From the IMG/VR virus record IMGVR_UViG_3300047548_000628, positions 62,001 to 126,000 of that record: a DNA stretch of 64,000 nucleotides. The stretch is one strand, 5' to 3'. The number at the start of each line of letters is the position of its first letter. Position 1 is the first letter of the stretch. The position numbers were made by a program, and so were the translations under genes. Under the pieces are notes generated by a model. That model saw nothing but the letters and a program-made list of their open reading frames with translations. It did not search any database and was not told the DNA's origin. This document shows positions 11,951 to 43,718 of the stretch, in pieces. This DNA comes from a virus.

Positions 11951-11974
11951 TAAGACCGTAACACAGGATATATT

Positions 11975-14572: not shown

Positions 14573-14583
14573 GGAAATAAAAA

Positions 14584-17583
14584 ATGACAACAAAATATTT
14601 TAACGTTAAGCAAGGTATTGTAACAGGAAATATTACTTTAGATGCGGCCTCAGGCAACATTGCTAATGTAGGTAATATTAGTGTTAAAGCCGGCGGAGTT
14701 GCTAACTTAGGTAATTTAGCAACCGCAAACTTTGTTACTGGTACATTAACAACTTCTTCACAACCCAATATTACCAGTGTCGGTACACTATCTAGTGTAG
14801 ACGTAACAGGTAATTTAACTGCAGGAAACGCTAACTTAGGTAACTTAGTAACAGCGAATTTCTTCAGCGGTAATGGTTCATTATTATCTAGTATTAACGG
14901 TGCTAATATTACGGGCACTACTGCTAATGCAAACTATGCTGCATATGCAGGAAATGTTGTCACTGCTGCTCAACCAAATATTACTAGTTTAGGTACTTTA
15001 ACTGGATTAACCAGCACTGGAATAGTAGACTTCACTGGCACAAGCAATGTTGCATTAGGTGCTGTAGGCAATGTACACATTACAGGTGGTACATCAGGAT
15101 ATGTCCTAAGTACAAATGGATCCGGTACTCTAAGTTGGGCTTCTCCTAATAGTTTAGGTACTGCAGGTTCAAACACACAAGTTCAGTTTAATGACGGTGG
15201 TTCATTTGGTGCTGATGCAAACTTTACATACGATAAAACAACTGATACATTGGGCGTTAAGAACGTTACAATGGAAGGTGCAGGAACTTTATCAGGCGGA
15301 AATTTAGTAAGCGCAAACTTTGTAACTGGTACATTAACAACTGCGGCTCAACCAAATATTACTAGTGTTGGTACATTATCATCACTATCAGTTACTGGTA
15401 ACGTAACATCAGGTAATGTTTACGCTAATAGTGGTACAATTGGTGCAAGTTTATTAACTGGTACATTAACAACAGCGGCACAACCAAATATTACTAGTGT
15501 TGGTACACTATCAAGTTTGACTTTAGTAGCAGACGGTGACATCACAATGAGTGGCTCAGGCTCTCAGTTGAGTGGTGCTAATTTAGTAAGTGCGAATTTC
15601 GTAACAGGTACGTTAACAACAGCAGCACAACCTAATATTACTAGTGTCGGAGATCTAGCAAGTTTAGGTGTTACTGGTAATGCAACAGTAGGTAATTTAT
15701 CATCTAATGGTTCAGCATATATTTCTAATGGCATGACTGTTGCTGCTGGCGGCGCATCTTTTACAGGTAATGTCGGTATTACAGGCAATTTAACAGTTAC
15801 TGGAAACTTGAATTATCAAAACGTTACTGACTTAGTAGTCGGTGACCCATTAATTTATATTGGTGCTAATAATACTGCAAATATCGTAGATTTAGGTATC
15901 GTTGCAAGCTATAACGATGGTACATATGAGCATACTGGTATTGTTCGTGACCACACAGATGGTGTTTGGAAACTATTTGACGGCGTTGCTACAGAGCCAA
16001 CTACGGTAATTGACTGGGCTAACGCTACATATGCTCCGTTCAAATCAGGAAGCATCACTGGTACAGGTACATTAAATATTACAGGTAATGCAAACGTAGG
16101 TAATATTGGCGCAAATATTGGTGTATTTACGGGCAACGTGACTGCTGCAAATATCTATGCTAACTCAGGTACTATCGGTGCAAGTTTATTAACTGGTACA
16201 TTAACAACAGCGGCACAACCAAATATTACTAGTGTTGGTACTCTATCGAGTTTATCTGTTACTGCTAACGTAACAGCAGGTAATGTATATGCTAACTCAG
16301 GTACTATCGGTGCAAGTTTATTAACTGGTACATTAACAACAGCAGCACAACCAAATATTACTAGTGTTGGTACTCTATCTTCATTGGTTGTCGGTAATTC
16401 AACTGCTAACGTCACTATCACAGTAGGCGGAGCAAACGGTACATTAACATCTACTGGTAACATTACTGCACCGTACTTCATCGGTAACGTACAAGGTAAC
16501 ATCAGTGGTAACATTGTTGTACCCGGTACAAATACATCTATACTGTTTAACAATTCTGGTAATGCTGGTGCAAGTTCTGACTTTACGTTTGATGATACTA
16601 CTAACATTGTCACACTAAACGGTAATATTGTAACAAATAATGCAAACTTAGGTAATGCAGCAACTGCAAATTACTTCATCGGTAACTTCTGGGGTACTGC
16701 TAACACAGCAACTACTGCGGGTACAGTAACTACAGCAGCACAACCTAATATTACATCAGTTGGTACATTAACTGGTTTAACAAGCACCGGTACTGTAAAT
16801 CTAACAGGTGCAAGCAACGTAAGTTTAGGACCAGTCGGTAATGTTCGTATTACTGGTGGTACTTCAGGTCAATATCTACAAACAGATGGTACCGGAACGT
16901 TATCGTGGGCGACACTCAGCTCTAGTTCTATATCTAACGGCACAAGTAATGTAAGTATCCCAGTATCTAATGGTAACGTAAATCTTGTTGCGGGTGGTAA
17001 TACAACAATGGTTGTTACTGCTACTGGATCAAACGTAACTGGCTACTTAGGAGTAACTGGTAATATTACTGCATCTAATGCTGATTTGGGCAATGCTGCA
17101 ACAGCTAATTACTTCATCGGTAATCTATGGGGCACTGCTAATACGGCAACTACTGCAGGTACAGTAACAACTGCTGCACAACCAAATATTACTAGTGTAG
17201 GTACACTAACAAGTCTAAATGTTTCTGGTAATTTAGCGGCTAACTATTCCGCAGCAAATACTGCGTTTACTTCAGGAAGAGCTAACGTAGCTGTAACAAC
17301 TAACACTGTTATCGACCAATTTGCTCCCGCTAGTTTTAGAACTGCTAAATATGTTATCAGTGCTGAAGGTGATGACGGATACCAATCTGTTGAAACATTG
17401 CTAATACATGACGGAGTTAATTCATACGTAACAATTTACGGTAGTATCTGTAGTAATAATACTGCTGATATTATTGAAATTTCTAGTAATGTTAGCGGAG
17501 TATCAGGAAACGTTGCATTGTATGCAACTGCATCAGGAGCTAACACAAAGGTTAAACTAGTAGCTACTTACATTGCTATCTAA
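14584..17583 (+). CDS. Repetitive tail-fibre protein 3 (longest plus-strand fibre)
   Basis: A 999-residue fibre that begins MTTKYFNVKQGIVTGNITLD, an N-terminal type shared with the 17637 gene. The shaft has many copies of GTLTTAAQPNITSVGTLSSL and YANSGTIGASLLTG. A segment LVVGDPLIYIGANNTANIV followed by HTGIVRDHTDGVWKLFDG resembles inserts in other phage fibres. The tip (about 895-999) has TNTVIDQFAPASFRTAKYVI and ETLLIHDGVNSYVTIYGSI. Repeats inside the gene are nearly identical in DNA, so copy number could change by recombination or be collapsed in assembly. Confidence 0.8.
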   Translation: MTTKYFNVKQGIVTGNITLDAASGNIANVGNISVKAGGVANLGNLATANFVTGTLTTSSQPNITSVGTLSSVDVTGNLTAGNANLGNLVTANFFSGNGSLLSSINGANITGTTANANYAAYAGNVVTAAQPNITSLGTLTGLTSTGIVDFTGTSNVALGAVGNVHITGGTSGYVLSTNGSGTLSWASPNSLGTAGSNTQVQFNDGGSFGADANFTYDKTTDTLGVKNVTMEGAGTLSGGNLVSANFVTGTLTTAAQPNITSVGTLSSLSVTGNVTSGNVYANSGTIGASLLTGTLTTAAQPNITSVGTLSSLTLVADGDITMSGSGSQLSGANLVSANFVTGTLTTAAQPNITSVGDLASLGVTGNATVGNLSSNGSAYISNGMTVAAGGASFTGNVGITGNLTVTGNLNYQNVTDLVVGDPLIYIGANNTANIVDLGIVASYNDGTYEHTGIVRDHTDGVWKLFDGVATEPTTVIDWANATYAPFKSGSITGTGTLNITGNANVGNIGANIGVFTGNVTAANIYANSGTIGASLLTGTLTTAAQPNITSVGTLSSLSVTANVTAGNVYANSGTIGASLLTGTLTTAAQPNITSVGTLSSLVVGNSTANVTITVGGANGTLTSTGNITAPYFIGNVQGNISGNIVVPGTNTSILFNNSGNAGASSDFTFDDTTNIVTLNGNIVTNNANLGNAATANYFIGNFWGTANTATTAGTVTTAAQPNITSVGTLTGLTSTGTVNLTGASNVSLGPVGNVRITGGTSGQYLQTDGTGTLSWATLSSSSISNGTSNVSIPVSNGNVNLVAGGNTTMVVTATGSNVTGYLGVTGNITASNADLGNAATANYFIGNLWGTANTATTAGTVTTAAQPNITSVGTLTSLNVSGNLAANYSAANTAFTSGRANVAVTTNTVIDQFAPASFRTAKYVISAEGDDGYQSVETLLIHDGVNSYVTIYGSICSNNTADIIEISSNVSGVSGNVALYATASGANTKVKLVATYIAI

Positions 17584-17636
17584 TAGCAATATAGGTTTCT
17601 ACATTACAATTTGCTTACAACAGGGAATATGGAACT

Positions 17637-18251
17637 GTGACACAAAAATATTTTAACGTTAAGAACGGCTTAACGACCGGTAATATTATATTGAATGCTA
17701 GTAATAGTAGTATTACGGCCAATACATATTCGGGTAATATACAAGTCACAGGTTCTGCAAATCTTGGTTCAGTATCAAATGTTACTATAACCGGTGGTTC
17801 TGCTAACTACGTACTTAGCACTAACGGATCAGGTTCATTGTCTTGGGTTCCGCAGTCAGGCGGTTCAGGATCACCTGGTGGATCAAACACTCAAGTTCAA
17901 TTCAATGACGGCGGATCTTTTGCCGGAAATGCTGGGCTAACCTTCGACAAAACTACAACTACTCTTACCGCAAATAATTTTGTAGCTACATCTAGTGCTA
18001 ATTTAGGTGCTGTTGAAAATTTACACATATCTGGTGGTATTGACGGTTATGTTTTAGCAACAGACGGAGCCGGAAACTTATCTTGGGTCGAACAAGGATC
18101 ATCTACTATAATCACTGCTGCGTACATGCCGTTTCAAATAAATACGTCAGAGCATTACTTGATTCCTGCAAACAGACAAGGTCTTTTCAGTTTACCTATC
18201 GATATAGGAGACGGAACATTAGAAATTGAAGGTATCTTAGTAGAAGTATAA
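17637..18251 (+). CDS. Short tail-fibre protein, GTG start
   Basis: A 204-residue protein with the same N-terminal block as the preceding gene (TQKYFNVKNGLTTGNIILNA), two shaft repeats (VTITGGSANYVLSTNGSGSL and LHISGGIDGYVLATDGAGNL), and a different short tip rich in beta-strand (MPFQINTSEHYLIPANRQGL). The start is GTG at 17637; the only nearby ATG (17628) is closed by a stop after three codons. It looks like a minimal fibre made of head, two repeats and tip. It is 12 nt from the next gene. Confidence 0.7.
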   Translation: MTQKYFNVKNGLTTGNIILNASNSSITANTYSGNIQVTGSANLGSVSNVTITGGSANYVLSTNGSGSLSWVPQSGGSGSPGGSNTQVQFNDGGSFAGNAGLTFDKTTTTLTANNFVATSSANLGAVENLHISGGIDGYVLATDGAGNLSWVEQGSSTIITAAYMPFQINTSEHYLIPANRQGLFSLPIDIGDGTLEIEGILVEV

Positions 18252-18263
18252 CGAGGAAAAATA

Positions 18264-20084
18264 ATGTCATTAATTTTAAAACAGGAAAACGCAAATGCAG
18301 TACCCACCCCAGGTAGTGGTAAAGGTACTATATTTTTAAATACTAACGATGACCTAGTAGTAAAACAATCTGACGGAAATGTAACGGTTTTCCCAACTAT
18401 ACCTAATGTCGCTAATACTGCAATTTATTATAGTAACAATGGGTCACTTGATGGTAGTAATGCATTAACGTTCAACAATACTACTAACGCTTTGTCAGTT
18501 ACTGGTAACGTAACAGCTAACACATTCAATGGTTCAGGAGCAGGTTTAACTAGTATACCCGGCGGTAACGTAACAGGTGCAGTAGCATACGCAACAACTG
18601 CCAACTCAGTAGCAGTTGGAAATGTAAGTGGAATAGGAAATATTGCTACTGTTAACTTAGATGGTAATGCAAGTAACATATTATATGGCAATGGTGCATT
18701 TGCATCTGCCCCTGTAACATATAATAACAGTAACGTAGCAACCTTCTTAGCAAGTTTTGGATCTAATACAATTACCACAACTGGTAATGTGCAAGTAGGA
18801 AATATCATCGGTAACGGTCAAGCATTGACTGGGATCAACGGTTCTAATGTAACTGGAACTGTAGCTAATGCAACATCTGCCGGTACAGCAGGGACAGTCA
18901 CTACAGCAGCACAACCTAATATTACTAGTGTTGGTACTTTAACAAGTTTAGGTGTTTCAGGAAACTTAGTTGTCGGCGGAGACTTAACAGTAGATGGTAA
19001 TTTGGTTTACGTAAATGTTTCAGATTTATCAGTTGAAGACCCGATTATTCAATTACAAACAGGACCAAACGCTGCTGCTCCTACAAGTAACTCAGGTAAA
19101 GATGTAGGTACTGCACTTAACTATTATGACACACAAGCTCGTGTGGCTTTTATGGGTTGGGATGTAAGTAATGCTGAATTTGGTTTCGGTGATGTAGTAT
19201 CAATTAATTCTGAAGTTGTAACTTTTACTAGTTACGGTAACATTCGTGCTGATTACTTCAAAGGTAATGGTAGCCAACTAACTGGTATTATTACTAGTGT
19301 GTCAAACGTTACTAACGGTAATAGCATAATGAATGTTATCGAAAACGGTAACATCACATTCCAGGCTGCAGGAAATGCCAACGTTGTTGTGGTTAGTGGA
19401 ACTGGTTTAACCGCAACTGGAACTATAGACTTTACTGGTGCAAGCAACGTTAGTTTAGGCAATATAGCTAACTTACATATCCCAGGTGGAACAGCTAATT
19501 ATGTATTAAGTACTGACGGTGCAGGTAACTTATCATGGGCACAAGGAGGCGGTGGTCCAACACAACTTGCAGTCGATTCATTTACCGGTGACGGTACTAC
19601 CGTTAACTTTACTTTATCAGTAACACCTAGTTCTGAAAATTATACAATCGTTGGTGTAGCTGGAACATTACAACCTAAGACTACATATTCATTATCTGGC
19701 AATACATTAACATTTTCTTCTGCACCACCAAATCAAGCACCTATTGAAGTTACTAGTTTTGCATCAGTTGGTAATATTAATCCCCCTACAGGATTGACAT
19801 GGAACTTGACTAATTCAAACGTCACTATGACAGTGTTTAATGGATATTTTGTTGATACATCAGCAGGCGCACTTTCTGTGACATTACCTAGTGTTGCTAC
19901 ATTAGGTGACACTGTTAAAGTAAGTGATCTTGCAGGAACTGCGGCAGCTAATAATATTACTGTATTACGAAATGGGCATAATATTCAAGGAGCTGCTTCA
20001 GATTTGCTAGTAGATTATGACAATGCTACAGTAGAGTTGATATACAGTAACGTAACGTATGGATGGAAGGCAATTGGACTATAA
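18264..20084 (+). CDS. Repetitive tail-fibre protein 4
   Basis: A 606-residue fibre. Its N-terminus (MSLILKQENANAVPTPGSGK, then GTIFLNTNDDLVVKQSDGNV) is a type seen in phage fibre adaptors. The shaft shares repeats with genes 11975 and 14584. The insert LSVEDPIIQLQTGPNAAAPT plus ALNYYDTQARVAFMGWDVSN is a long variant of the segment in the earlier fibres. The last 170 residues contain the beta-domain found in the 11975 gene and a tip with LPSVATLGDTVKVSDLAGTA. The SD site is AGGA. Its TAA stop overlaps the next ATG (TAATG), implying translational coupling. Confidence 0.8.
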   Translation: MSLILKQENANAVPTPGSGKGTIFLNTNDDLVVKQSDGNVTVFPTIPNVANTAIYYSNNGSLDGSNALTFNNTTNALSVTGNVTANTFNGSGAGLTSIPGGNVTGAVAYATTANSVAVGNVSGIGNIATVNLDGNASNILYGNGAFASAPVTYNNSNVATFLASFGSNTITTTGNVQVGNIIGNGQALTGINGSNVTGTVANATSAGTAGTVTTAAQPNITSVGTLTSLGVSGNLVVGGDLTVDGNLVYVNVSDLSVEDPIIQLQTGPNAAAPTSNSGKDVGTALNYYDTQARVAFMGWDVSNAEFGFGDVVSINSEVVTFTSYGNIRADYFKGNGSQLTGIITSVSNVTNGNSIMNVIENGNITFQAAGNANVVVVSGTGLTATGTIDFTGASNVSLGNIANLHIPGGTANYVLSTDGAGNLSWAQGGGGPTQLAVDSFTGDGTTVNFTLSVTPSSENYTIVGVAGTLQPKTTYSLSGNTLTFSSAPPNQAPIEVTSFASVGNINPPTGLTWNLTNSNVTMTVFNGYFVDTSAGALSVTLPSVATLGDTVKVSDLAGTAAANNITVLRNGHNIQGAASDLLVDYDNATVELIYSNVTYGWKAIGL

Positions 20085-21856
20085 TGACTACACAATCATA
20101 CTCTACATTACAAAATCAAGCACTTACTGAAGTTCTAGCACCTACGTTAGATGCTATTGCATCACCAAAAATTAACTCGATTACTTATCCAGGTGATGAT
20201 ACCGCAGCGTCAACTGCAGGAGGCCAAACTATTACAATTAATGGTTCTGGATTTCAAACTGGTGCAATAGTTACTGTTGACGGTTCTACTATAGGAGTTG
20301 TCTCAGTAGTAGATTCTAATACAATCACGTTCATAAGTCCTGCAAAAGCTTCCGGATCATATAATTTGTATGTAATTAATTCTGACGGTGGTACTGGTAT
20401 ATATATTCCTGGAATGCAATATAGTGGTACTCCTACTTGGAATACTGCTGCAGGCAGCTTAGGTACGTTATACGAAACACAAACATTGAATTATACTCTG
20501 TCTGCAACAAGTGATAGTACTATTACATATAGTGTTGGTACAGGGACATTAGTGTCAGGTGGTTCATTAAATTCTTCTACGGGTGCAATTACAGGTACAG
20601 CGGGATCAGTATCAAGTTCTACTACATACACATTTGGGGTAGATGCAATTGATACAGAACTACAAGATACACGTAGATCGTTTAGCGTTACAGTTAACCC
20701 AGACGTAGTTACTTGGAGTACACCTGCTAATGGTGCAAGTTATAGCAATGTTGTAAATGATGTATTTTCGGTATCACTAAGTGCTAGTAGTGCAATAGGA
20801 AGTCCAGTAACATACAGTGCAAATGTACTACCGGCAGGGTTAAGTGTAGGTACCGCTAATATATTTGGTACATTTACTACTGCAGGTAATAGTTCTAGTT
20901 TAATTACTGCTACCGCAACTAACACTAGCAAAACAGCAAATATAACATTGAATTGGGCAGTAGCTGCCTTGCCAGTTGATGCTAATTATGGTTGGTTTGC
21001 ATCAGGTACTAGTAGCCCATCTACTTCTCAATCAGACCGCATTGATTATAGCAATGACAACGTTGCAACAACATTACGTGGATCTACAATCAACACCCAA
21101 TACATGTCGGCTACCGGTAATAGCAGTTATGGTTGGTTTGGAAACGGTAGTAATACGACATTAATATGTAGATTAGATTACTCTAATGACAATGCTGCCG
21201 CTACAGATCGAGGCCCGTTATCGTTCGGAAGATATCAAGGATATGCAACTGGTAATCAAAATTATGGTTACTTTGGTGGCGGCGGCGGAACTTCTACTGG
21301 TGTTTCAGTTGTAACTAGGATAACCTATGCTAGTGATTTAAACACAAGTGAGACTAGAGGTCCTCTAGCAGCCTCTACATACTTTGTTGCCGCAACTGGA
21401 AACAGTGACTTCGGATGGTGGGGCGGCGGTGCTAACCCGAACAAGTTATCAAGAGTCAGCCGTGTTGACTATGCTAATGATAATACTACTGCCAGTGCTA
21501 GGGGCCCATTATCATCAGCTAGATACGGTATAGGTGCTGCTGGAAATAGTAACTATGGATGGTTTGCTGGTGGACTTGGTCAATACCCGACAGTATGGAC
21601 TTATGTTGATAGAATTACTTTCGCATCTGACACAGGAACTGCTGCAACACGTGGTCCAATATCTCGCGGTAGACGATACATAGGAGCAACCGGTAGTATC
21701 GATTACGGGTGGTTCATGGGAGGGGTTGTTTGGGGGCCATCTGCTGGTACAGTTATAGATCGTATTACATACTCATCAGATACTACTACAATGGCGGTAA
21801 GAGGGTCTACCGCAGATAAAGGATTCCGTGCAGCAGCGGGTGGATATCCAGGATAA
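20084..21856 (+). CDS. Fibre tip protein: IPT/Ig head plus six-repeat propeller-like ring
   Basis: Start chosen at ATG 20084, which overlaps the previous stop, rather than the longer frame from 20063. The protein has 590 residues. Residues about 20-120 resemble an IPT/TIG immunoglobulin-like domain (GGQTITINGSGFQTGAIVTV). Residues about 120-300 look like cadherin/putative-Ig strands. From about 300 onward there are six repeats of about 45 residues, each with a YGWF-GGG-type turn (variants YGYF, FGWW), a DYSNDN-type strand and an RGPLS segment, closing with GGYPG. The same six-repeat ring occurs in two minus-strand genes (41471 and 43779) behind unrelated heads. A beta-propeller receptor-binding domain is the most likely fold (inference). 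Confidence 0.75.
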   Translation: MTTQSYSTLQNQALTEVLAPTLDAIASPKINSITYPGDDTAASTAGGQTITINGSGFQTGAIVTVDGSTIGVVSVVDSNTITFISPAKASGSYNLYVINSDGGTGIYIPGMQYSGTPTWNTAAGSLGTLYETQTLNYTLSATSDSTITYSVGTGTLVSGGSLNSSTGAITGTAGSVSSSTTYTFGVDAIDTELQDTRRSFSVTVNPDVVTWSTPANGASYSNVVNDVFSVSLSASSAIGSPVTYSANVLPAGLSVGTANIFGTFTTAGNSSSLITATATNTSKTANITLNWAVAALPVDANYGWFASGTSSPSTSQSDRIDYSNDNVATTLRGSTINTQYMSATGNSSYGWFGNGSNTTLICRLDYSNDNAAATDRGPLSFGRYQGYATGNQNYGYFGGGGGTSTGVSVVTRITYASDLNTSETRGPLAASTYFVAATGNSDFGWWGGGANPNKLSRVSRVDYANDNTTASARGPLSSARYGIGAAGNSNYGWFAGGLGQYPTVWTYVDRITFASDTGTAATRGPISRGRRYIGATGSIDYGWFMGGVVWGPSAGTVIDRITYSSDTTTMAVRGSTADKGFRAAAGGYPG

Positions 21857-21862
21857 TAAATA
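21855..21862 (+). promoter_or_regulatory. Late-promoter-like AATAAATA
   Basis: AATAAATA overlaps the stop codon of the preceding gene and lies 20 nt before the ATG at 21883, with AAAAGG as ribosome site between. Confidence 0.55.
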
Positions 21863-21882
21863 CATAATAAAAGGTAAAAAAT

Positions 21883-22527
21883 ATGGCATTAGTAAAAATT
21901 AAACCATACATAGTCGATGAAACAAGCGACTTCACATTTAATAAAGTTACTGTTACAAGTAACGTAGTTGCAAACACAGGTAATGTAATTTTTGGTTCTG
22001 CCAGTAACGTAACTATCACCGGAGGAAGTAACGGGCAAGTTCTAACTACGAACGGATCAGGGGTTCTGAGTTGGTCAACCGTGTCAGCTGGTACTTCAAT
22101 CACAGATGACACCTCTACTAATGCTAACTATTACCCAACGTTAACTACTGCAACTTCAGGTACAATTTCCTCAGCAAACGTATCAAGTTCTAAACTGTAT
22201 TTTAATCCAAGTACAGGCGCCCTAGCAGCTACTGACTTTAACTCATTGTCTGACGGAAACTTTAAAACAAACTTAGTCAAGTTAGAAAAAGTAAGACAAA
22301 TCTTAGAACAAATATCGGGATATAGTTTCGATTGGACAGATGGTTCCGGTAGTAGTTACGGTGTTATTGCTCAAGAAGTTGAAAAAGTAATGCCAAATGC
22401 AGTTACTGATGGCGAAAAGAAAACCGTTAACTACGCAGCCATCACAGCATTTTTAGTCGAAGCTATCAAAGATTTGTATTTGGAAATTGACAAAATCAAA
22501 CAAGACATTTCTAAACACATTGATTGA
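21883..22527 (+). CDS. Tail-fibre protein with S74-type intramolecular chaperone
   Basis: A 214-residue protein. The first 115 residues are fibre-like (VTITGGSNGQVLTTNGSGVL). From about residue 120 the sequence is a peptidase S74 / endosialidase intramolecular chaperone domain: SDGNFKTNLVKLEKVRQILE, then SGYSFDWTDGSGSSYGVIAQ, EVEKVMPNAVTDGEKKTVNY and a helical end. In this family the domain trimerises the fibre and then cleaves itself off just before the Ser-Asp motif. It is the last gene of the fibre operon, followed by hairpins. It could assist folding of its own fibre only, or of the neighbours too (unproven). Confidence 0.85.
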   Translation: MALVKIKPYIVDETSDFTFNKVTVTSNVVANTGNVIFGSASNVTITGGSNGQVLTTNGSGVLSWSTVSAGTSITDDTSTNANYYPTLTTATSGTISSANVSSSKLYFNPSTGALAATDFNSLSDGNFKTNLVKLEKVRQILEQISGYSFDWTDGSGSSYGVIAQEVEKVMPNAVTDGEKKTVNYAAITAFLVEAIKDLYLEIDKIKQDISKHID

Positions 22528-22809: not shown

Positions 22810-25125
22810 ATGATTATAAACGTAACTAAGCGTTCTGGAAAAAAAGAACCACTTAACCTAGAAAAATGGCAAGCGCAAGTAGCAAAAGTTTGTAAAGGGA
22901 TCGCAGATGTTAGCTCAAGTATGATTGAGATTAAATCGCAGTTACATTTTTATGATGGAATCACTACTAAAGAAATCGATGAAATTACTCTACGTGCTAT
23001 CGTAGATTTAATCGATGTAGAGTCAAATCCAGAAATCGGTCACACAAACTACCAATACGTTGCTGGTAAACAACGTGTAAGTATGCTACGTAAGGATGTC
23101 TATGGCGACTATACACCTCCCAGACTGTACGAAATAGTTAAAACTAATATTGCTACAGGTTTATACACACCTGAACTATTAGAGTGGTATACAGAAGAAG
23201 AATGGGACAAGATGGATGACATGCTAGACCATTCAAAAGATGAACAGTATTCGTATGCTGCAATCGAACAATTGATTGAAAAATACCTAGTTCGCAATCG
23301 TTCTACTAAACAAACATATGAAACGCCGCAAGTTCGTTACATGATTGCTGCGGCTACTGTTTTTCATAAAGAAGAACCTAACAGCGCAAGAATGCGCTAT
23401 ATCAAAGAATATTACAATGCTGCTAGTGATGGGCTATTTACATTAGCAACACCTGTATTAGCTGGTCTTGGTACTCCTACCAAGCAGTTTTCAAGTTGTG
23501 TACTCATTCGCAGTGATGATGATTTAGACTCCATTTTTGCTAGTGGCGAAATGATGGCAAAGTATGCTAGTAAACGTGCTGGCATCGGTTTAGAGATTGG
23601 TCGTCTACGTTCATTAGGTTCTCCCATTCGTGGAGGGGAAATCATGCACACTGGGATGATACCTTTTTTAAAGAAGTGGTTCGGTGATTTGCGTAGTTGT
23701 TCACAAGGAGGCATTCGTAATGCTAGTGCTACAGTTTTCTATCCCATATGGCATCACCAATTTGATGACCTTATTGTTCTCAAAAACAATCAAGGAACAG
23801 AAGAAACACGAGTACGACACATGGATTACGGGGTGGTACTATCAGCATTCTTTTGGCGTAGATTTAAGAACAAGGAAAATATCACATTTTTCGACCCTAA
23901 CGAGGTACCCGACCTCTATGAGGCTTTCTATTCGAGCACCGAATTATTTGAAGAATTATATGTCAAGTATGAAAAAAATAAGAGCCTTCGAAAGAAAGTA
24001 ATGAGTGCTGAGGAAGTCTTCAAGGGCGGTATCCTTAAAGAGCGTACAGACACTGGACGTATCTATCTAGTTTTTATCGATAACGTAATGAATCAAGGTC
24101 CTTTTGATCCTGATTATCATACAATTTACCAGAGTAATCTTTGCTGTGAAATACTTCTTCCTACTAAACCCTTTAAACGTCTGGATGATGATTCTGGTCG
24201 TATCGCTCTTTGCACACTCGGATCAATCAACTGGGGCGCCTTCCGTAATCCAGAAGACATGCGCCGTGCTTGCCGTATTTTGCACCGTAGCCTTAACAAT
24301 ATACTTGATTACCAAGATTTCTTGAGTATACAAAGTAAATTAAGCAATGACGAGATCCGCCCATTGGGTATCGGTGTTACTAACTTAGCTTACTGGCATG
24401 CCAAACGTGGACTAAAGTATGGTACAGAAGAAGCACTGAAGGAAGTAAAATCTTTTATGGAACATCAAGCATTCTACTTGACTGAAGCTAGTGTTGAGTT
24501 AGCACAGGAAAGAGGTAGATGTGTTGATAGCGATAAGACATATTATGGTCAAGGTATCTTCCCTTGGGAGCGCAGAGCACCAGGTGTCAATGAATTAGCA
24601 GACTTTACGCCAGAGTTAAATTGGGAAGGCCTTCGTGCCCAAATGAGAGCTTATGGAGTACGAAACGCTACTCAAATGGCTATTGCACCTGTTGAAAGTT
24701 CTAGCGTTGTTATTAACTCAACTAACGGTATCGAAATGCCAATGAGTTTGATTACTGTCAAAGAAAGTAAAGCAGGATCGTTTACTCAAGTTGTACCTGA
24801 ATACCATAAGTTAAAGAATAAATATCAGTTAATGTGGGAACAGAAAGATTGCGATGCGTATCTAAAAACAGCCGCTGTATTGCAAGCATATGTTGACCAA
24901 TCTATTTCAACAAATACTTTCTATAATCCTGCACATTTTGAAGGTCGTAAAGTACCGACAACATTGATTGCTAAGAATCTAATGCAATCTCAGATGTGGG
25001 GTATTAAGACATTCTATTACTCATTGATTAATAAACAAGGAAGTAAACAAAAAGACGAGGCAGTTTTAGATTTACCTAACAACATCGAACTGATAGAAGA
25101 AGATTGTGAAGCATGTAAATTATGA
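22810..25125 (+). CDS. nrdA: Ribonucleoside-diphosphate reductase alpha subunit, class Ia
   Basis: A 771-residue catalytic subunit that reduces NDPs to dNDPs. The N-terminal 90 residues look like an ATP-cone ([20 protein letters not shown]). FSSCVLI holds active-site Cys230. NLCCEILLP supplies the Asn-Cys-Glu catalytic trio and [11 protein letters not shown] the second redox Cys. [18 protein letters not shown] is the conserved C-terminal barrel motif. The tail CEACKL carries the CxxC pair that relays electrons from glutaredoxin or thioredoxin. All key residues are present, so the enzyme should be active. It overlaps the next gene by four bases (ATGA) and shares its operon with nrdB. Confidence 0.97.
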
Positions 25126-25448
25126 TTACCATAACAGAATCAGCAAAGTTCAAAATCGTTGACCTTCTTAATGAAGAAAATGATGCAAATTTAAAACTTA
25201 GGACATTCGTTCAAGGTGGCGGGTGTTCAGGTTTTCAGTACGGTTTTACGTTTGACCCTGAACAAAACGAAGATGATTTTGAATTTCCAGTTGACGAGAA
25301 ATATAAAGTTGTAGTTGATGCAATGAGTATGCAATATTTGACAGGTGCAGTAATTGACTACAAAGAAGATTTAATGGGCAGTAGTTTCAGTATCAGTAAC
25401 CCTAATGCAGAAACTACATGTGGATGTGGTAGTAGCTTTTCAATTTAA
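25122..25448 (+). CDS. HesB/IscA-family iron-sulfur carrier (ErpA-like)
   Basis: A 108-residue A-type Fe-S carrier. The three conserved cysteines are present: Cys35 in [12 protein letters not shown], and Cys100 and Cys102 in [10 protein letters not shown]. The GGGCSGFQY form and acidic middle resemble ErpA more than IscA, but the subfamily is uncertain. It starts inside the nrdA stop region (ATGA overlap) and is 13 nt from iscU. HesB-like genes are known in T4-like aquatic phages. Here it is the first of three consecutive Fe-S biogenesis genes. Likely role: transfer of clusters to apo-enzymes. Confidence 0.92.
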
Positions 25449-25461: not shown

Positions 25462-25848
25462 ATGGCATATAGCGAAGCAGTTATAGATCATTATGAAAAT
25501 CCTAGAAATGTAGGATCGTTTTCAAAAGATGACGTTGATGTAGGTACTGGTATGGTCGGTGCCCCAGCTTGCGGTGATGTGATGAAACTACAGATAAAAG
25601 TAGAAGATGGTATTATTACTGATGCAAAGTTTAAAACATACGGCTGTGGCTCTGCCATCGCATCCAGTAGTCTTGTTACTGAGTGGGTCAAAGGCAAAAC
25701 GTTGGACGAAGCAGCAGCATTAAAGAATAGTCAAATCGCAGAAGAACTTGCATTGCCCCCTGTTAAAATTCATTGTTCAATCTTAGCCGAAGACGCTATT
25801 AAAGCCGCAGTAGAAGATTACAGGAAGAAGCATGATAACAGTCACTGA
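25462..25848 (+). CDS. iscU: Iron-sulfur cluster scaffold protein IscU
   Basis: A 128-residue scaffold on which Fe-S clusters are built. It has all IscU hallmarks: GAPACGDVM with Cys37 and Asp39, TYGCGSA with Cys62, and IHCSILAED with Cys105. LPPVK at 98-102 matches the motif that the HscA chaperone recognises in bacterial IscU. Keeping that motif suggests it works with the host HscA/HscB. No cysteine desulfurase (IscS) is in the window, so sulfur would have to come from the host. AGGAG lies upstream. The 3' end overlaps the next gene by 17 nt. Confidence 0.95.
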   Translation: MAYSEAVIDHYENPRNVGSFSKDDVDVGTGMVGAPACGDVMKLQIKVEDGIITDAKFKTYGCGSAIASSSLVTEWVKGKTLDEAAALKNSQIAEELALPPVKIHCSILAEDAIKAAVEDYRKKHDNSH

Positions 25849-26155
25849 TATTGCTGCTAAAAAAATCAAACAACAAATCAGTAAGCGCGGAAAAGGATTG
25901 GGTGTTCTAATAGGTGTTAAAACTACTGGTTGCAGTGGTCTAGCTTACGTGCTTGAATTTTTAGATAACGAAAACCCGCATTGCATAGAACATCACGAGA
26001 GCAACGGAGTCAAAGTATTTATGGATCCAAAATATCGACCTTATTTGTATGGCACCGTAATTGATTATGTACGTAATGGATTGAATGAAGGATTTGAATT
26101 TAAGAACCCGAATGAACGTGATAGATGCGGGTGCGGAGAAAGTTTTAGAGTATAA
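25832..26155 (+). CDS. iscA: Iron-sulfur carrier IscA
   Basis: A 107-residue second A-type carrier with Cys34 (KTTGCSGLAYVLEF) and Cys99/Cys101 (DRCGCGESFRV). The TGCSGLAY and ERDRCGCGESF forms are closer to classical IscA than the upstream paralogue. The reading frame begins 17 nt inside iscU, so the two are coupled. Two different carriers flanking one scaffold in a phage is unusual and suggests several client enzymes. Only 9 nt separate it from aceA. Confidence 0.93.
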   Translation: MITVTDIAAKKIKQQISKRGKGLGVLIGVKTTGCSGLAYVLEFLDNENPHCIEHHESNGVKVFMDPKYRPYLYGTVIDYVRNGLNEGFEFKNPNERDRCGCGESFRV

Positions 26156-26164: not shown

Positions 26165-27370
26165 ATGAAAAAGAGAAACTACACACAAGACACAGTTAAA
26201 AAGCTACAAGGTAGCGTACAGATTGAACACACACTAGCGAAACGCGGAGCGACAAAACTACGTGAATTGCTAGCAACAGAACCATACATCAATACACTAG
26301 GTGCATATAATGGACAAATGGCAGTACAACATGCTAAAGCTGGCTTAAAAGCAATTTACTTGTCAGGATGGCAAGTTGCCGGTGCAAACAATACCTCAAA
26401 TCAAACATACCCGGATCAATCACTCTATCCTGTTGATTCTGTACCTCGTGTTGTTAAAGGTATTAACAACGCTTTCCGTCGTGCAGACCAAATTGAACAC
26501 AGCGAAGGCAAAGTTGAAACAGACTATTTCTTGCCTATCGTTGCAGATGCAGAAGCTGGGTTCGGTGGTGCATTGAATGCATATGAGCTAATGGCAGCAA
26601 TGATTGAAGCAGGCGCCGCTGGTGTACACTTTGAAGACCAATTAGCTAGTGAAAAGAAATGTGGTCACTTGGGTGGTAAAGTTCTAGTACCCACAAGCCA
26701 AATGATTCGTACATTGAATGCTGCACGACTAGCAGCAGATGTTGCAGGTGTTGATACTGTTATTATGGCACGAACAGATGCCGAAGCAGCTACACTTATT
26801 ACTAGTGACCACGACCCATTAGACAAGGACTTTGTAATCAATGAAAGAACTGAAGAAGGTTTTTACAAATTTAAAAACGGTATTGATGCTTGTATTAGCA
26901 GAGGTCTTGCTTATGCCCCTTACGCTGATCTCTTATGGTTCGAAACTTCAACGCCTGATATCGCACAAGCTAGAAAGTTCGCTGACGCCATCCATGCACA
27001 GTATCCTGACCAAATGCTTGCCTATAATTGCAGTCCTAGTTTTAATTGGCGTAAGTTTTTGAGTGAAGACGAATGTGAAACATTCCAAAGAGAACTAGGA
27101 GAATTGGGTTATAAGTTCCAATTCATTACACTTGCAGGCTTTCATAGTGTAAACTTAGCTACATTCGAACTAGCAGAGGCTTACAAGGCAAGAGGCATGG
27201 CAGGTTACAGTGAAATGCAACAACGAGAGTTTGCTGCACAAGACCGTGGCTTTACCACAGTCAAACATCAACGTGAAGTAGGTGTTGGATATTTCGACCT
27301 AATTAGTGAAGCAGTTGGAGCAAAGTCTACAGTTGCTAATAAACATTCAACTGAAGAAGATCAATTTTAA
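26165..27370 (+). CDS. aceA: Isocitrate lyase (glyoxylate shunt)
   Basis: A 401-residue enzyme that splits isocitrate into succinate and glyoxylate. The catalytic signature [13 protein letters not shown] is intact (Cys166), as are [46 protein letters not shown] and the C-terminal STEEDQF, which parallels the end of E. coli AceA. It is about 30 residues shorter than the E. coli protein, mostly at the N-terminus, where the enzyme is variable. The KKCGH and length argue against methylisocitrate lyase. AAGGAA precedes the ATG. There is no malate synthase in the window. It lies inside the nrdA-nrdB operon, a location I do not know for any described phage. Confidence 0.95.
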
Positions 27371-27380: not shown

Positions 27381-27968
27381 ATGAAAAAAATTATTCTATT
27401 ATTTCTATTCTTTGCAACGTCCGTATTTGCCGGTGATCTTACTATTTGTAATGGTAAGTATGCATTGTGTGCGGCTAGCACTTGTACTAAGACTGGAAAA
27501 ACTATTACAACTAATAACGGTGTTTCATACCCAGAAGTTGTTTGTAAATGTCCAGTACTAGAGGGTCCTAGTATTGCAGATTTAAGTGCTGGTGTAATGA
27601 AAGGGTCATGTAATGTAGATGATCCTACTACGCAAGTATGGAGTCTATTTGCTCCTCGCATTCATTATCCACAAGAAGCAAATAACTTTGTACAAACTCC
27701 AAAGAGTGCTACAAGAGCGAAAGTTCAATCTTGCTCAGGAGACGTAGCACAAGGGTCTGCTAATTGCTGGGGTATGATGTGTAGATACAAAAAAGATCCC
27801 ATTAACGGTACTACTGTTGCAGACTGTAGCTGCCCAATTGGACAGATTGCTAAAGGAATTGAATTCTTAACAGAAGCAGGTCAAGGAGATCCCAAAGCAT
27901 GTGCTAAGCACCCAGTAGCTGCACCTGATCCATTCGCTGATATAATTTTAAATGTAAAGAAAAAATGA
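27381..27968 (+). CDS. Secreted cysteine-rich protein of unknown function
   Basis: A 195-residue protein with a clear signal peptide: MKK, a hydrophobic run IILLFLFFATS, then a cleavage site after VFA. The mature part has about twelve cysteines in short motifs (TIC, ALC, STC, CKC, CSC), which suggests disulfide bonds in the periplasm or binding of a metal. I recognise no family. It starts 10 nt after aceA and overlaps nrdB by four bases, so it is cotranscribed with cytoplasmic enzymes although it should be exported. That mismatch makes it notable. Confidence 0.8.
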   Translation: MKKIILLFLFFATSVFAGDLTICNGKYALCAASTCTKTGKTITTNNGVSYPEVVCKCPVLEGPSIADLSAGVMKGSCNVDDPTTQVWSLFAPRIHYPQEANNFVQTPKSATRAKVQSCSGDVAQGSANCWGMMCRYKKDPINGTTVADCSCPIGQIAKGIEFLTEAGQGDPKACAKHPVAAPDPFADIILNVKKK

Positions 27969-29065
27969 GCCAAGCACAATATAACTTAAACACAAAAACA
28001 GATTATCTTAGTCGCAAAATGTTTCTAGACCCAGAAGGCCCGGTAACTATTCAACGATTCGAAGAAGTAAAATATAAAAAGATTGCAGATTTTGAACAAA
28101 CTGCACGTGGATTCTTTTGGGTCCCGGAAGAAATCAGTTTAACTAAAGATGCTAGTGATTTCAAAGATGCTAGTGAAACTGTTCGTCATATTTTTACGAG
28201 TAATTTATTGCGTCAGACTGCACTAGATAGTTTACAGGGAAGAGGTCCTAGTCAGATTTTTACACCTGTAATCAGTTTACCTGAACTAGAAGCACTAGTT
28301 TATAACTGGACATTCTTTGAAACAAACATTCATAGTCGTAGTTACAGCCATATTATTCGTAACATCTACAATGTTCCTAAAGAAGTATTCAACACTATTC
28401 ATGATACACAAGAAATTGTTAGTATGGCTTCTAGCGTCGGTAATTACTATGAAGCACTACACCAAATTAACTGTCGCAAAGAACTAGGTGAAACTGTTAC
28501 TGAAGATGAACACATTAAAGCAATCTATCTAGCACTACACGCTAGTTATGCATTAGAAGCATTTAGATTTATGGTTTCTTTTGCGACAAGTCTAGCAATG
28601 GTAGAAAACAAAATCTTTATTGGTAATGGCAACATCATCAGTTTGATTCTACAAGACGAACTATTACACAAAGGTTGGACTGCTTTCTTAATTAACCAAG
28701 TTGTTAAAGAAGACTCACGTTTTGCTAAAATTGCAGAAGAAACTAAAGACGAAGTTTATAAAATTTACTTAGATGTAATTCGTGAAGAAAAAGAATGGGC
28801 AGATTACTTGTTTCAAAAAGGACCAGTTATTGGTCTAAATGCGACTGTTCTTAAAGATTTTGTTGATTACACTGCGGTTAGTGCATTGAAAGAAATCGGT
28901 ATTAAGTACACAGAACCTCACCCAAAGACAACACCTATTCCTTGGTTTAACAAACATTCTGATACTAGTAAAAAGCAAACTGCGTTACAAGAGAATGAAT
29001 CTACTAACTATGTTATTGGTGTTATGAGTGATGCAATCGATTATGAGGCGTTACCCAGCTTGTAA
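27965..29065 (+). CDS. nrdB: Ribonucleoside-diphosphate reductase beta subunit
   Basis: A 366-residue radical-generating di-iron subunit, partner of NrdA. It shows FFWVPEEISLTKDASDF (Asp65, first ligand), the helix FFETNIHSRSYSHIIRNIY with Glu119, His123 and radical Tyr127, a later ALEAFRF glutamate, and LQDELLH with Glu and His. The tail (NYVIGVMSDAIDYEALPSL) is the acidic C-terminus that docks on NrdA. One oddity is that Glu and His in the radical helix are four apart (ExxxH) where E. coli NrdB has ExxH. It is the last gene of the operon and converges with a minus-strand gene two bases later. Confidence 0.95.
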   Translation: MSQAQYNLNTKTDYLSRKMFLDPEGPVTIQRFEEVKYKKIADFEQTARGFFWVPEEISLTKDASDFKDASETVRHIFTSNLLRQTALDSLQGRGPSQIFTPVISLPELEALVYNWTFFETNIHSRSYSHIIRNIYNVPKEVFNTIHDTQEIVSMASSVGNYYEALHQINCRKELGETVTEDEHIKAIYLALHASYALEAFRFMVSFATSLAMVENKIFIGNGNIISLILQDELLHKGWTAFLINQVVKEDSRFAKIAEETKDEVYKIYLDVIREEKEWADYLFQKGPVIGLNATVLKDFVDYTAVSALKEIGIKYTEPHPKTTPIPWFNKHSDTSKKQTALQENESTNYVIGVMSDAIDYEALPSL

Positions 29066-36434: not shown

Positions 36435-37097
36435 TTATCCTTTGATATTATATTTATCGTTAATAATCTTAGTTTCTTCATCTAGTGTCGTGAAACCCTT
36501 GACAGTCATCCAATTTACCATAGATAAACGATGTCCTTTAGTTACTGGTTCTACACCATGTAAATAACTAAAAGTTGAAGGGAAGCATACTAGCATACCA
36601 GGCTCAGGACGAATTCTGACTCTAAGTTCTGGGAATACAAAATCACCCCCTTCAAAATCATCGTTTAGAAAAAGAACAGTACTCAAGTCACGATCTGTTG
36701 ATTTCCTCCATAATACTTCTCCGTCAGGAGCTTTCCATAATGATTGACCGTCTACGTGCGGCAAGTAATGTCCGCCTACTGAATAAGATAATAACTGCGG
36801 AGCTTCAGAATCCCTAATCTCAAAATCATATGCTGGATTGATGATATTAAAAACAATGTCTCTATATAAGTCTACGATAGTATCCATGATGCCAGAAATA
36901 TCTATCATTTGTGTATCACGTACTTTTTTGTCAACCGTGAACGAAGTCTTCCCTGACTTGTTAGTTTCTTCAGGATCAAACACAGACAGATCAATTTTGT
37001 TTTGTTGTCTAACATAATCTGTGATAAAGGCAAGACCCTCTTTAGAAATGACATTGGGCTTAATTAAAATATTGGATAGTAAGTTATCTTTCATCAA
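36435..37097 (-). CDS. 2OG-Fe(II) oxygenase, prolyl-4-hydroxylase type
   Basis: A 220-residue protein with the P4H core: SVGGHYLPHVDGQ (HxD), DLSTVLFLNDDFEGGDFVFP, IRPEPGMLVCFPSTFSYLHG with the distal His, and GHRLSMVNWM with the 2-oxoglutarate-binding Arg. This arrangement is common in T4-like marine phages. It probably hydroxylates a protein or glycan. 11 nt from the upstream glycosyltransferase fusion. Confidence 0.9.
   Translation of the reverse strand: MMKDNLLSNILIKPNVISKEGLAFITDYVRQQNKIDLSVFDPEETNKSGKTSFTVDKKVRDTQMIDISGIMDTIVDLYRDIVFNIINPAYDFEIRDSEAPQLLSYSVGGHYLPHVDGQSLWKAPDGEVLWRKSTDRDLSTVLFLNDDFEGGDFVFPELRVRIRPEPGMLVCFPSTFSYLHGVEPVTKGHRLSMVNWMTVKGFTTLDEETKIINDKYNIKG
36451..36458 (-). 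promoter_or_regulatory. Late-promoter-like GATAAATA inside the end of the oxygenase gene
   Basis: GATAAATA on the minus strand lies 21 nt upstream of the ATG at 36429, within the last codons of the upstream gene. Confidence 0.45.
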
Positions 37098-40506: not shown

Positions 40507-41463
40507 TTAAGTTCCTGAGCAAGAAGCTAATGATTGTCTACTAACAGTTAAATCACCAAAATCTGTAGCATTGCCGGTACTAGCAATAGTAATATAATCA
40601 ATTACATTAGAATTTACGGTAGTATAACCACCACCAAATACACCTATTGTTCCATTTGAACAAGAAGACAGCTCCTTTCTAGCAACAGTTAAAGTACCGA
40701 AACTAGTTGCATTGCCTGTTGTTTGAATAGTAATATAATCAATTACATTAGAGAGCGAACCGGTATTACCACCACCAAATACACCACGAGTAGAATCAGA
40801 ACATGCAGCTAAAGCACTTCTAAAATTTGTTAAATTACCAAAGTTAGTAGCATTACCTGTAGTAGCAATTGTAACATAATCTATTTTATTGGTATATGCT
40901 GAGTCGCCAAATCCACCACCAAATACACCACGAGTAGAATCAGAACATGCACCTACAGAATATCTGGCAGCAGTCAAATCACCAAAATCTGTAGCATTGC
41001 CGGTAGTAGCAATCGTAATATAATCAATTACATTAGAATTTGCATTTGAAGCATATCCACCACCAAATACACCTCTTGTCCCATTAGAACAAGCACTCAC
41101 ACCTTCCCTGCCACTAACAGTTAAATCGCCGAAGTCTGTAGCGTTACCAGTTGTGGCAATAGTAATGTAATCAATTACATTTGAAATTGGACCATTACTA
41201 CCGCCACCAAATACACCTCTTGTCCCATTAGAACAAGCAGCTAATCCTTGTCTACCAACAGTTAAATCACCAAAATCTGTAGCATTGCCGGTACTAGCAA
41301 TAGTAATATAATCAATTACATTAGAGATCGACCCAGTGGTGCCGCCACCAAATGTACCTCTACTACCGTACCATACTGGTTGATAATATGTAGTGGGCCA
41401 TACCCCATCTAATATTAATTCATATACTTCATTTAATGTGAAAACATCTGTTATTTGACTCAT
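40507..41463 (-). CDS. Six-repeat propeller-like virion protein, type I (intact)
   Basis: A 318-residue protein. The head MSQITDVFTLNEVYELILDG is followed by VWPTTYYQPVW. Six repeats of about 46 residues follow, each with an RGVFGGG turn (RGTF and IGVF variants), NVIDYITIATTGNATDFGDL and a variable CSNGT loop, ending SCSGT. The truncated last unit (CSGT) would be completed by the first RGTFGGG, as in beta-propellers closed by joining the two ends. Probably a receptor-binding or decoration protein. It shares its head with the frameshifted gene at 34444. Confidence 0.75.
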   Translation of the reverse strand: MSQITDVFTLNEVYELILDGVWPTTYYQPVWYGSRGTFGGGTTGSISNVIDYITIASTGNATDFGDLTVGRQGLAACSNGTRGVFGGGSNGPISNVIDYITIATTGNATDFGDLTVSGREGVSACSNGTRGVFGGGYASNANSNVIDYITIATTGNATDFGDLTAARYSVGACSDSTRGVFGGGFGDSAYTNKIDYVTIATTGNATNFGNLTNFRSALAACSDSTRGVFGGGNTGSLSNVIDYITIQTTGNATSFGTLTVARKELSSCSNGTIGVFGGGYTTVNSNVIDYITIASTGNATDFGDLTVSRQSLASCSGT

Positions 41464-41470
41464 ATTTTTA

Positions 41471-42481
41471 TTATCCCGGATACCCGCCAGTAGCAGCTAA
41501 TCCATATCTACCTGCGCTTAGAGGACCCCTTGATGATGCAGCAGTAGAATCACTCGCATAAGTGATGCGATCTACTGATGACATTAGATTGGGACTACCT
41601 GCACCAAAATAACCATAATCAGCATTACCGGTTGCAGTAAATAAGTACCTGTTTACAGTTAACGGACCTCTAACGCTAGCGAGTCCGGTGTCACTTGCAT
41701 AATCAACTCTATCCACCCTAGATAACAATAAAGAATTAATCTGGTCGACTCCACCGCCCCACCAACCATAGTTACTATTGCCGGCTGCTGCTGGCGCCAC
41801 TACAGTAGAATTTAAATTTCCTCTTACACTTGATGTACTTAAATCACTTGAATATGTAATTCGTGTTAAGTATGAACGTTGAGTTGGTACAGGTCCATTA
41901 TTTATTGTTCCGCCCCCGAACCAACCATAGTTACTATTACCTGTTGCAGCAAGTTGAAATATTATTTCATATAAACTTCCTCTAACACCGGCAGTTCCTG
42001 TATCACTTGAATATGTTATACGATCAACTGTGCTTAAAACACTGGGGGTACCATTACCACCGCCACCGAACCAACCGTAATCAGTATTACCAGTTGCTGC
42101 TAATAGATATCTTGCTGCACTTAGTGGTCCTCTCGCACTAGCAGTAGAACTGTCGCTAGCATAATCTACACGATCTACGCTAGAAAGCACGTCTGGTCTG
42201 CCCCCTCCAAACCAACCATAATTTCCATTACCGGCTGCGGTAAACCTGTGTCTGACTACAGTTAAGGGACCTCTAACGCTAGCTGTCGCAGTGTCATTTG
42301 CATACTCGATTCTATCGACCAACGAAGCGTCTATTGATGGAGATGGTTTACCACCACCGAACCAACCATATAATTCTCCCGGTGGAGTTGCTGGTTGATA
42401 TGTAGTGGGCCAATAACCGCCTAATTGTCTTGCTCGTACATCAGACCCCCAAAATGCACCAGTTGTGTTAGTTTCCGCCAT
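41471..42481 (-). CDS. Six-repeat propeller-like virion protein, type II
   Basis: A 336-residue protein. The head MAETNTTGAFWGSDVRARQL is followed by GGYWPTTYQPATPPGE. Six repeats with YGWFGGG turns (one YGWWGGG, one YGYFGAG), RVDYASDT-type strands and SVRGPLS segments follow, closing with AATGGYPG. The repeat type matches the plus-strand gene 20084 and the gene at 43779. The head matches the gene at 44754, which instead carries type I repeats. This is direct evidence of module exchange. Confidence 0.75.
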   Translation of the reverse strand: MAETNTTGAFWGSDVRARQLGGYWPTTYQPATPPGELYGWFGGGKPSPSIDASLVDRIEYANDTATASVRGPLTVVRHRFTAAGNGNYGWFGGGRPDVLSSVDRVDYASDSSTASARGPLSAARYLLAATGNTDYGWFGGGGNGTPSVLSTVDRITYSSDTGTAGVRGSLYEIIFQLAATGNSNYGWFGGGTINNGPVPTQRSYLTRITYSSDLSTSSVRGNLNSTVVAPAAAGNSNYGWWGGGVDQINSLLLSRVDRVDYASDTGLASVRGPLTVNRYLFTATGNADYGYFGAGSPNLMSSVDRITYASDSTAASSRGPLSAGRYGLAATGGYPG

Positions 42482-42493
42482 AAAGCTCCTAAA

Positions 42494-43333: not shown

Positions 43334-43359
43334 AGTGTTTGACGTAAATTATAGTATTT

Positions 43360-43367
43360 TATTTATA
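43360..43367 (-). promoter_or_regulatory. Late promoter, exact TATAAATA
   Basis: TATAAATA on the minus strand, 26 nt upstream of the ATG at 43333 and just after the terminator of the preceding gene. Confidence 0.7.
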
Positions 43368-43372
43368 GGTAA

Positions 43373-43401: not shown

Positions 43402-43422
43402 ATAAGTCATTGAAGTAAATTA

Positions 43423-43692: not shown

Positions 43693-43718
43693 GAATATCT
43701 CCTATGTGTTTTATAATA

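Follow-up and report, generated by a model that had tools for sequence, protein, structure and literature searches.

Genes for isocitrate lyase (ICL; aceA) in viruses have been published since 2013 (PMC4053976) and an aceBA operon since 2017 (PMC5332604), and the accessible parts of both papers propose that viral aceA boosts the glyoxylate shunt. An earlier note on the DNA studied here, which knew of no described phage with aceA, is not supported on this point. Viral aceA was further reported in PMC12783922 and PMC10721903, as far as their accessible text goes; in that of the former, lake sediment is the source of both aceA and nrdA of viruses, and a common contig is not stated. Two other candidate sources were discarded, as PMC12628691 merely cites a Vibrio AceA study and the ICL in PMC6811365 is a host gene only. 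On the host side, the accessible part of a review (PMC10452541) names aceA and aceB as having the highest expression in Pseudoalteromonas infected by phage HP1.

Several described systems resemble the locus analysed here. The virus TARA_ERS478052_N000008 (PMC5332604; T4-like, 179 kb), compared only by its description in the accessible text, is likewise a large T4-like virus that carries aceA but pairs it with aceB, whereas in our case aceA stands alone among nrd and Fe-S genes. The aceA and aceB families of the Pacific Ocean virome (PMC4053976) likewise place viral aceA in environmental viromes, but in the accessible text they are gene families without genome context. T4-like marine viruses with IscU (PMC5332604) are described in the accessible text with iscU, A-type carriers and many radical SAM genes, all of which recur here, and what our locus adds to them is the ICL. 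Phage C48C1 (OQ984149.1, Kyanoviridae by record) encodes a 63% identical ICL that is also short at the N-terminus (CDS0055, L002:18001-19242, labelled 'hypothetical protein' in its record), and it too has an IscU-like gene upstream of ICL, but no nrd gene lies within 18 kb of its ICL, judged by annotation and by tblastn with our NrdA and NrdB. Bacterial AceA/ICL1 (PF00463, PRK15063; 6lrp, 7cmx, 1f8i) is alike in family, fold, active-site residues and C-terminal end, with 62-64% identity to the best solved structures; the phage protein differs in being approximately 20-35 residues shorter at the N-terminus, and its gene in lying within a ribonucleotide reductase (RNR) operon of a record without malate synthase. 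Thus, viral aceA itself was already known, and for its position inside an RNR operon we found no published description in our searches of open-access papers.

RESULTS

An isocitrate lyase gene inside a phage RNR operon

The window, i.e. the whole stretch of 64,000 nucleotides that was analysed, covers positions 62,001 to 126,000 of the IMG/VR virus record IMGVR_UViG_3300047548_000628 (147,572 bp). The plus strand of the window carries the following genes in this order.

22810..25125, + strand: nrdA, class Ia RNR large subunit, 771 aa (PRK09103, 833.5 bits, cut-off 813)
25122..25448, + strand: ErpA-like A-type Fe-S carrier, 108 aa (PRK13623 ErpA, 153.8 bits, cut-off 117)
25462..25848, + strand: IscU Fe-S scaffold, 128 aa (TIGR01999, 224.4 bits, cut-off 192.4)
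25832..26155, + strand: IscA-like A-type Fe-S carrier, 107 aa (TIGR00049, 99.9 over 58.8)
26165..27370, + strand: isocitrate lyase (aceA), 401 aa, catalytic Cys166 (profile matches, active-site alignment, AlphaFold2 model, Foldseek)
27381..27968, + strand: protein of 195 aa of no known family (Pfam, PHROG and NCBIfam without family match)
27965..29065, + strand: nrdB, class Ia RNR small subunit, 366 aa (PF00268, 142.3 bits over 33.6; phrog_86, E 3.5e-111)

The IscA-like protein stayed under the cut-off of the IscA model TIGR02011 (135.5 bits, cut-off 150.6) and NrdB under that of PRK09101 (295.7, cut-off 346). From nrdA to nrdB the junctions measured -4, 13, -17, 9, 10 and -4 nt, so that nrdA overlaps the ErpA-like gene, and the 195-aa ORF overlaps nrdB, by 4 nt each. 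The ATG of the ICL gene follows directly after an in-frame TAA (window 26165). The claim that the gene lies between Fe-S genes and nrdB held for the upstream Fe-S gene, the common strand and the tight junctions, but the 195-aa ORF precedes nrdB. The N-terminus of the 195-aa protein resembles a signal peptide by eye, and a relative of it adjoins ICL in 8 of the 81 lineage-1 loci introduced below, window included. A search of the window with Rfam gave no riboswitch or other RNA at the gathering threshold, and promoter- and terminator-like sites were no more frequent than in shuffled sequence.

The phage protein has the hallmarks of a true isocitrate lyase

The phage ORF matched the NCBIfam isocitrate lyase model PRK15063 over residues 3-401 (690.6 bits, cut-off 562), TIGR01346 (548.8 bits, cut-off 275.9) and the Pfam ICL family (E 5e-103), and the nearest solved chains in a sequence search were ICLs. 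The KKCGH motif with Cys166 (within KKCGHLGGK) and the STEEDQF C-terminal end were both present, as the earlier note had pointed out. The phage ICL was aligned with the Mycobacterium tuberculosis enzyme, and in an alignment of 31 ICL rows (13 from lineage 1 and close to it, 10 from lineage 2, 4 from group 3 and 4 bacterial) S67, G68, W69, D84, D128, H155, E157, C166, H168 and R203 were invariant, as were E260, N288, S290, S292 and T322. These residues match the active-site set of the M. tuberculosis enzyme.

An AlphaFold2 model built from 29 aligned rows reached a pLDDT of 85.9 and a pTM of 0.87, and the only stretch with a pLDDT below 50 was residues 166-169, at the catalytic cysteine. The best PDB match of the model in Foldseek was the ICL 6lrp (TM 0.93, 64% identity); ranks 1-15 were bacterial ICLs with TM-scores of 0.93-0.96, and all 50 matches listed were ICLs.

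A rival reading is a member of the ICL/PEP-mutase superfamily with another substrate, such as methylisocitrate lyase, and the phage ICL did match PrpB and PEP mutase models more weakly. The general Pfam PEP_mutase model was passed (68.1 over 31.5), as by a superfamily relative. The PrpB model, however, gave only 114.8 bits against a cut-off of 354.4, and the other PrpB- or PEP-mutase-type equivalogs of NCBIfam were all far under their own cut-offs, whereas the AceA models were well over theirs; together with the KKCGHLGGK motif and the STEEDQF end this makes another substrate very improbable and upholds the original assignment to true ICL. Judged from the sequence, the phage ORF very probably encodes a working ICL, and because of the homology, cleavage of isocitrate by the protein would be near certain. 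The description of the enzyme as complete applied to the catalytic core and the C-terminal end, but not to the N-terminal segment, of which approximately 20-35 residues are missing. 

The gene belongs to a phage genome

A bacterial contaminant or a chimeric assembly was considered as a rival explanation. The record is a virus record from an environmental collection, and 8 of the 9 records in a phage collection that match the ICL look bacterial, judged by name and identity. Against this, 178 IMG/VR stretches encode relatives of the ICL, the nearest tree rows are viral and up to 96% identical while bacteria reach at most 67% among the loci fetched, phage C48C1 carries its 63% identical relative, and the N-terminal segment is missing in the viral copies alike. 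The GC3 of the ICL gene (0.274) also matches that of the phage genes (RNR genes 0.237-0.304, capsid 0.311). Contamination is thus extremely unlikely, and GC3, the relatives and purifying selection (below) rule out the chimera with bacterial DNA that the earlier note had named as a danger. Going by its sequence, aceA is a putative auxiliary metabolic gene, as it lies within a virus genome among virus genes and is kept under selection.

The major capsid protein is 68.8% identical to that of Vibrio phage 2.275.O (349 kb) and 66% to that of MIJ3 (288 kb), so its nearest relatives are jumbo T4-like phages; a size above 200 kb is reached by the 260,148-bp record L252, while our record has 147,572 bp. 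L252 shares 18,313 bp with our record with 0 mismatches, and our record is therefore probably a fragment of a larger genome; the two may derive from shared reads and were not counted as independent assemblies.

Other features of the record were noted. Approximately 40 tRNA genes cluster at L087:11916-19757 and in L088, and a solitary tRNA-like gene whose anticodon is CUA (amber) lies at L083:1032-1105 (minus strand). Recoding of TAG by this tRNA was considered and rejected, as the stop codons of ORFs with 150 aa or more are TAA (61), TGA (26) and TAG (5), and none of the 5 TAG ends was followed by 30 or more open codons. Seven radical SAM proteins, some with SPASM, were found among those checked (sites at L083:14352-16831, L087:2674-9590 and window 61826-62896), and they are a likely reason for the Fe-S assembly genes. 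A run of aspartyl/asparaginyl beta-hydroxylase-like genes with a 2OG-Fe(II) oxygenase gene occupies window 55941-59631 (minus strand), and a further gene lies at 36435-37097; the Pfam checks covered this further gene and three from the run. A PstS phosphate-binding protein (L083:4393-5397, minus strand; 403.7 bits, cut-off 339), an AhpC-like peroxiredoxin (L083:3080-3625, minus strand) and a class II aldolase (L083:2060-2683, minus strand) are also encoded, and relatives of the aldolase lie within 3 kb of the ICL in 11 of 81 lineage-1 loci. Very long repetitive ORFs (window 9068-22527 and 40507-49343) are probably tail-fibre or surface proteins; the ORF at window 21883 has an endosialidase-chaperone Peptidase_S74 domain.

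Viral ICLs form an apparently virus-only branch and a mixed group

Scanning IMG/VR with the window ICL yielded the 178 stretches mentioned above, of which 80 loci, 88-96% identical, were kept (lineage 1). In the phage collection 9 records matched, and only C48C1 (63%) did not look bacterial by name or identity. A scan with the C48C1 ICL found 98, mostly lineage 2, among them L198 and L199, which are 85% identical to the window ICL, and L202, which belongs to group 3; a scan with the L202 ICL then found 26 (group 3), and these counts may overlap and depend on exact peptide patterns. The group-3 ICLs (L224-L249) are viral, on contigs of up to 361 kb, partly with malate synthase.

Across 3240 pairs of the 81 lineage-1 ICL sequences the median pN was 0.084 compared to a median pS of 0.709, and in pairs with a dS of 0.1-2 the median dN/dS was 0.051, a rough ratio because dS was near saturation. 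By these measures, strong purifying selection clearly acts on the lineage-1 gene, and the gene is clearly old.

ICL trees were built from 71 sequences, 17 of them bacterial, and the bacterial sampling is thin. Lineages 1 and 2 formed one side of a branch with an SH-aLRT of 98 (99 without the two longest rows) and required one virus/bacterium change in the careful tree, and on this sequence evidence they apparently constitute a virus-only branch. The closest rows to the window ICL were viral. Group 3 was intermixed with bacterial rows. The free tree requires 5 virus/bacterium changes, and a single origin for all viral ICLs was not rejected (p-AU 0.116).

The window ICL and its viral relatives in lineages 1 and 2 lack the approximately 20-35 N-terminal residues with which bacterial ICLs begin. 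All 44 bacterial rows (39 distinct genes) have an in-frame start 10 or more codons upstream, compared to 8 of 80 and 5 of 72 viral rows, although an open frame upstream does not establish which start is used. Seven plasmid ICLs were fetched, of which 5 are annotated and start 19-35 codons upstream. Group 3 is intermediate in this respect. The absent segment, which precedes the equivalent of residues 3-4, is usual in bacteria and not family-defining.

No recent host donor was found: the best identity in bacterial genomes was 67% (28 loci), in a scan that reaches only genomes with exact peptide matches. It was at most 65% in 61 genomes from the phylum of an Aquimarina and at most 66.3% among the best 60 of 314 matching plasmid records.

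Lineage-1 ICL genes recur beside nrd genes or a desaturase

Within 3 kb of the ICL, the 81 lineage-1 loci, window included, have nrdA or nrdB in 57 cases, a desaturase in 22, neither in 2 and both in 0. The picture was similar for the 40 loci whose flanks both span 3 kb or more (nrd 25, desaturase 13, neither 2). All 69 junctions between ICL and a directly neighbouring nrd gene were co-directional, with gaps of -44 to 205 nt. The desaturase of L026 gave 380.3 bits with the DesA-family model NF049918, just under the cut-off of 400, and passed Pfam FA_desaturase. A glutaredoxin-like gene lies within 3 kb of the ICL in 44 of the 81 loci. The C48C1 scan contributed 80 loci, almost all from lineage 2, and tblastn with the window NrdA and NrdB placed nrd near the ICL in none of them. 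An IscU or A-type-carrier gene lies no more than 8 kb away in 16 of these loci and in 19 of 80 from lineage 1, where flanks are often short.

When counted from NrdA, ICL was present in 7 of the 80 nearest IMG/VR loci (the best 80 of at least 599 stretches), and in 5 of the 35 that have flanks of 3 kb in both directions; among the 7, one is the identical L252 and three are contigs already included among the ICL loci. A search of 16 related records over their whole length found ICL in 2, namely our own record and its identical sister. The ICL is an occasional passenger of the phage nrd operon, which works without it, as its presence in 7 of 80 NrdA loci implies.

The distances between NrdA sequences correlated with those between NrdB sequences (Spearman 0.80, p 0.001, 29 loci), but ICL distances hardly followed those of NrdA (Spearman 0.14, p 0.073, 32 loci) or NrdB (Spearman 0.11, p 0.058, 53 loci). 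Two RNR lineages (23 and 9 loci) have a median NrdA identity of 86.5% within and 69.9% between them, whereas the median ICL identity is 91.3% within and 91.0% between the same two lineages. Because ICL divergence hardly tracks that of NrdA while NrdB divergence does, the ICL seems to have been exchanged between phages. It may have entered nrd operons more than once or have been replaced in place; the architectures of the nrd operons differ, with ICL before or after nrdB and Fe-S genes present or not, and this variation would favour repeated entry.

Beta-type tmRNAs point to betaproteobacterial hosts

Our record encodes a permuted tmRNA (L083:7067-7452, minus strand) that matches Rfam beta_tmRNA with 99 bits (cut-off 84). 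Its predicted tag is ANAANDEVFALAA; five related phage loci have beta-type tmRNAs with other tags. ARAGORN found tmRNAs in 5 of the 81 loci L002-L082, all in lineage 1, and all 5 passed beta_tmRNA, so that 6 of 6 lineage-1 tmRNAs, our own record included and with nrd and desaturase neighbourhoods both represented, are of the beta type. In the 106 loci of the other two scans it found 5 tmRNAs, all in lineage 2; all 5 passed the general permuted model, and one also passed alpha_tmRNA. Since the lineage-1 tmRNAs are all beta-type, the lineage-1 phages likely infect betaproteobacteria. PstS was indecisive as a host clue, its best plasmid matches being to Azospirillum at approximately 60%.

No malate synthase was detected in the lineage-1 and lineage-2 records searched

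PF01274 did not detect a malate synthase in our record (147,572 bp), itself probably a fragment, in line with what had been noted from the sequence. Counted by record, which may be a fragment in each case, malate synthase occurred in 0 of 10 for lineage 1 (our own included), 0 of 5 for lineage 2 and 6 of 10 for group 3; the PF01274 control was positive in 6 of 14 genomes. An earlier, partly overlapping set of 20 records also gave 0. In group 3, a member of a malate synthase cluster lies within 3 kb of the ICL in 9 of 26 loci, and the member in L224 is malate synthase A (TIGR01344, 713.7 bits over 594.5). Serine hydroxymethyltransferase (SHMT) was found in 0 of 15 phage records, and Aminotran_5 in 2 of 15, as weak matches.

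DISCUSSION

What is new here is an apparently virus-only ICL lineage that recurs near nrd genes or a desaturase and comes without malate synthase in the records searched. Of the evidence for a link in function or expression, the repeated association with nrd operons is the best. As a whole, a functional ICL made together with RNR for a biosynthetic benefit is the best explanation, and we give it an even chance. According to this explanation, a jumbo T4-like phage whose host is probably a betaproteobacterium would make ICL alongside its RNR, presumably from a common transcript, and during phage DNA replication the enzyme would split host isocitrate into glyoxylate and succinate. As the search of the phage yielded no malate synthase, host enzymes would have to take up and use the glyoxylate. 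Glyoxylate could then be converted into glycine and one-carbon units for purines and thymidylate, and succinate via oxaloacetate into aspartate for pyrimidines. The main benefit would be that carbon is retained for biosynthesis rather than lost as CO2. In the freshwater betaproteobacterium Polynucleobacter, induction of ICL under UV and amination of glyoxylate to glycine are discussed in the accessible part of PMC7522526, and by analogy such a fate may be plausible in a host of this kind.

The specific purpose within this explanation, supply of nucleotide precursors, has somewhat less than an even chance. Counting against it, 22 of the 81 ICLs in lineage 1 have a DesA-like desaturase and not nrd in their vicinity, and these, together with the nrd-free loci of the C48C1 scan, would be left unexplained by a purpose in nucleotide synthesis only. 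The low counts of SHMT and Aminotran_5 also count against it. Other cargo of the nrd operon, such as the Fe-S genes and the aldolase, suggests that the position of the ICL may merely reflect a convenient site for expression. The most specific version, to which we attach a lower probability still, is that of a mobile, virus-only, short ICL without malate synthase. It would be carried as cargo by RNR operons in jumbo phages of betaproteobacteria, would have passed between two or more of their RNR lineages and would act as a nucleotide-precursor enzyme and not as part of the shunt.

Viral aceA was read earlier as a boost of the glyoxylate shunt. Here phage ICL and host malate synthase would together save the carbon of acetyl-CoA, derived from acetate, fatty acids or membrane lipid turnover, and keep the TCA cycle filled. 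This was proposed in the accessible text of PMC4053976 and PMC5332604, and the high expression of host aceA and aceB in HP1-infected Pseudoalteromonas (accessible part of PMC10452541) would fit it, as would the aceB that accompanies group-3 ICLs; the desaturase beside 22 of 81 lineage-1 ICLs hints at lipid metabolism. The absence of aceB from the lineage-1 and lineage-2 records, possible fragments, and the frequent nrd neighbourhood in lineage 1 speak against it, and we consider an ordinary shunt boost a real but less likely alternative to a biosynthetic use alongside RNR.

Less probable again is that the ICL serves redox, iron or 2-oxoglutarate management by bypassing the TCA steps that form NADH and lose CO2, which would lower NADH and 2-oxoglutarate or ease iron or oxidative stress. 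The ErpA-, IscU- and IscA-like genes that accompany the ICL, the frequent glutaredoxin-like gene, a weakly matching Dps-like gene near the ICL in L018, and the AhpC-like peroxiredoxin, PstS and radical SAM proteins of our record are consistent with this. However, the 2OG-Fe(II) oxygenase-like proteins of the phage would need 2-oxoglutarate, and the radical SAM genes account for the Fe-S genes without the ICL.

The locus also exposes a gap in annotation, as no PHROG matched the phage ICL (E 0.001) and the C48C1 copy is labelled hypothetical. While viral aceA has so far been read as a booster of the glyoxylate shunt, a viral lineage without malate synthase in 15 records, with its ICL near RNR or a desaturase, suggests that phages may use half of the shunt for biosynthesis.
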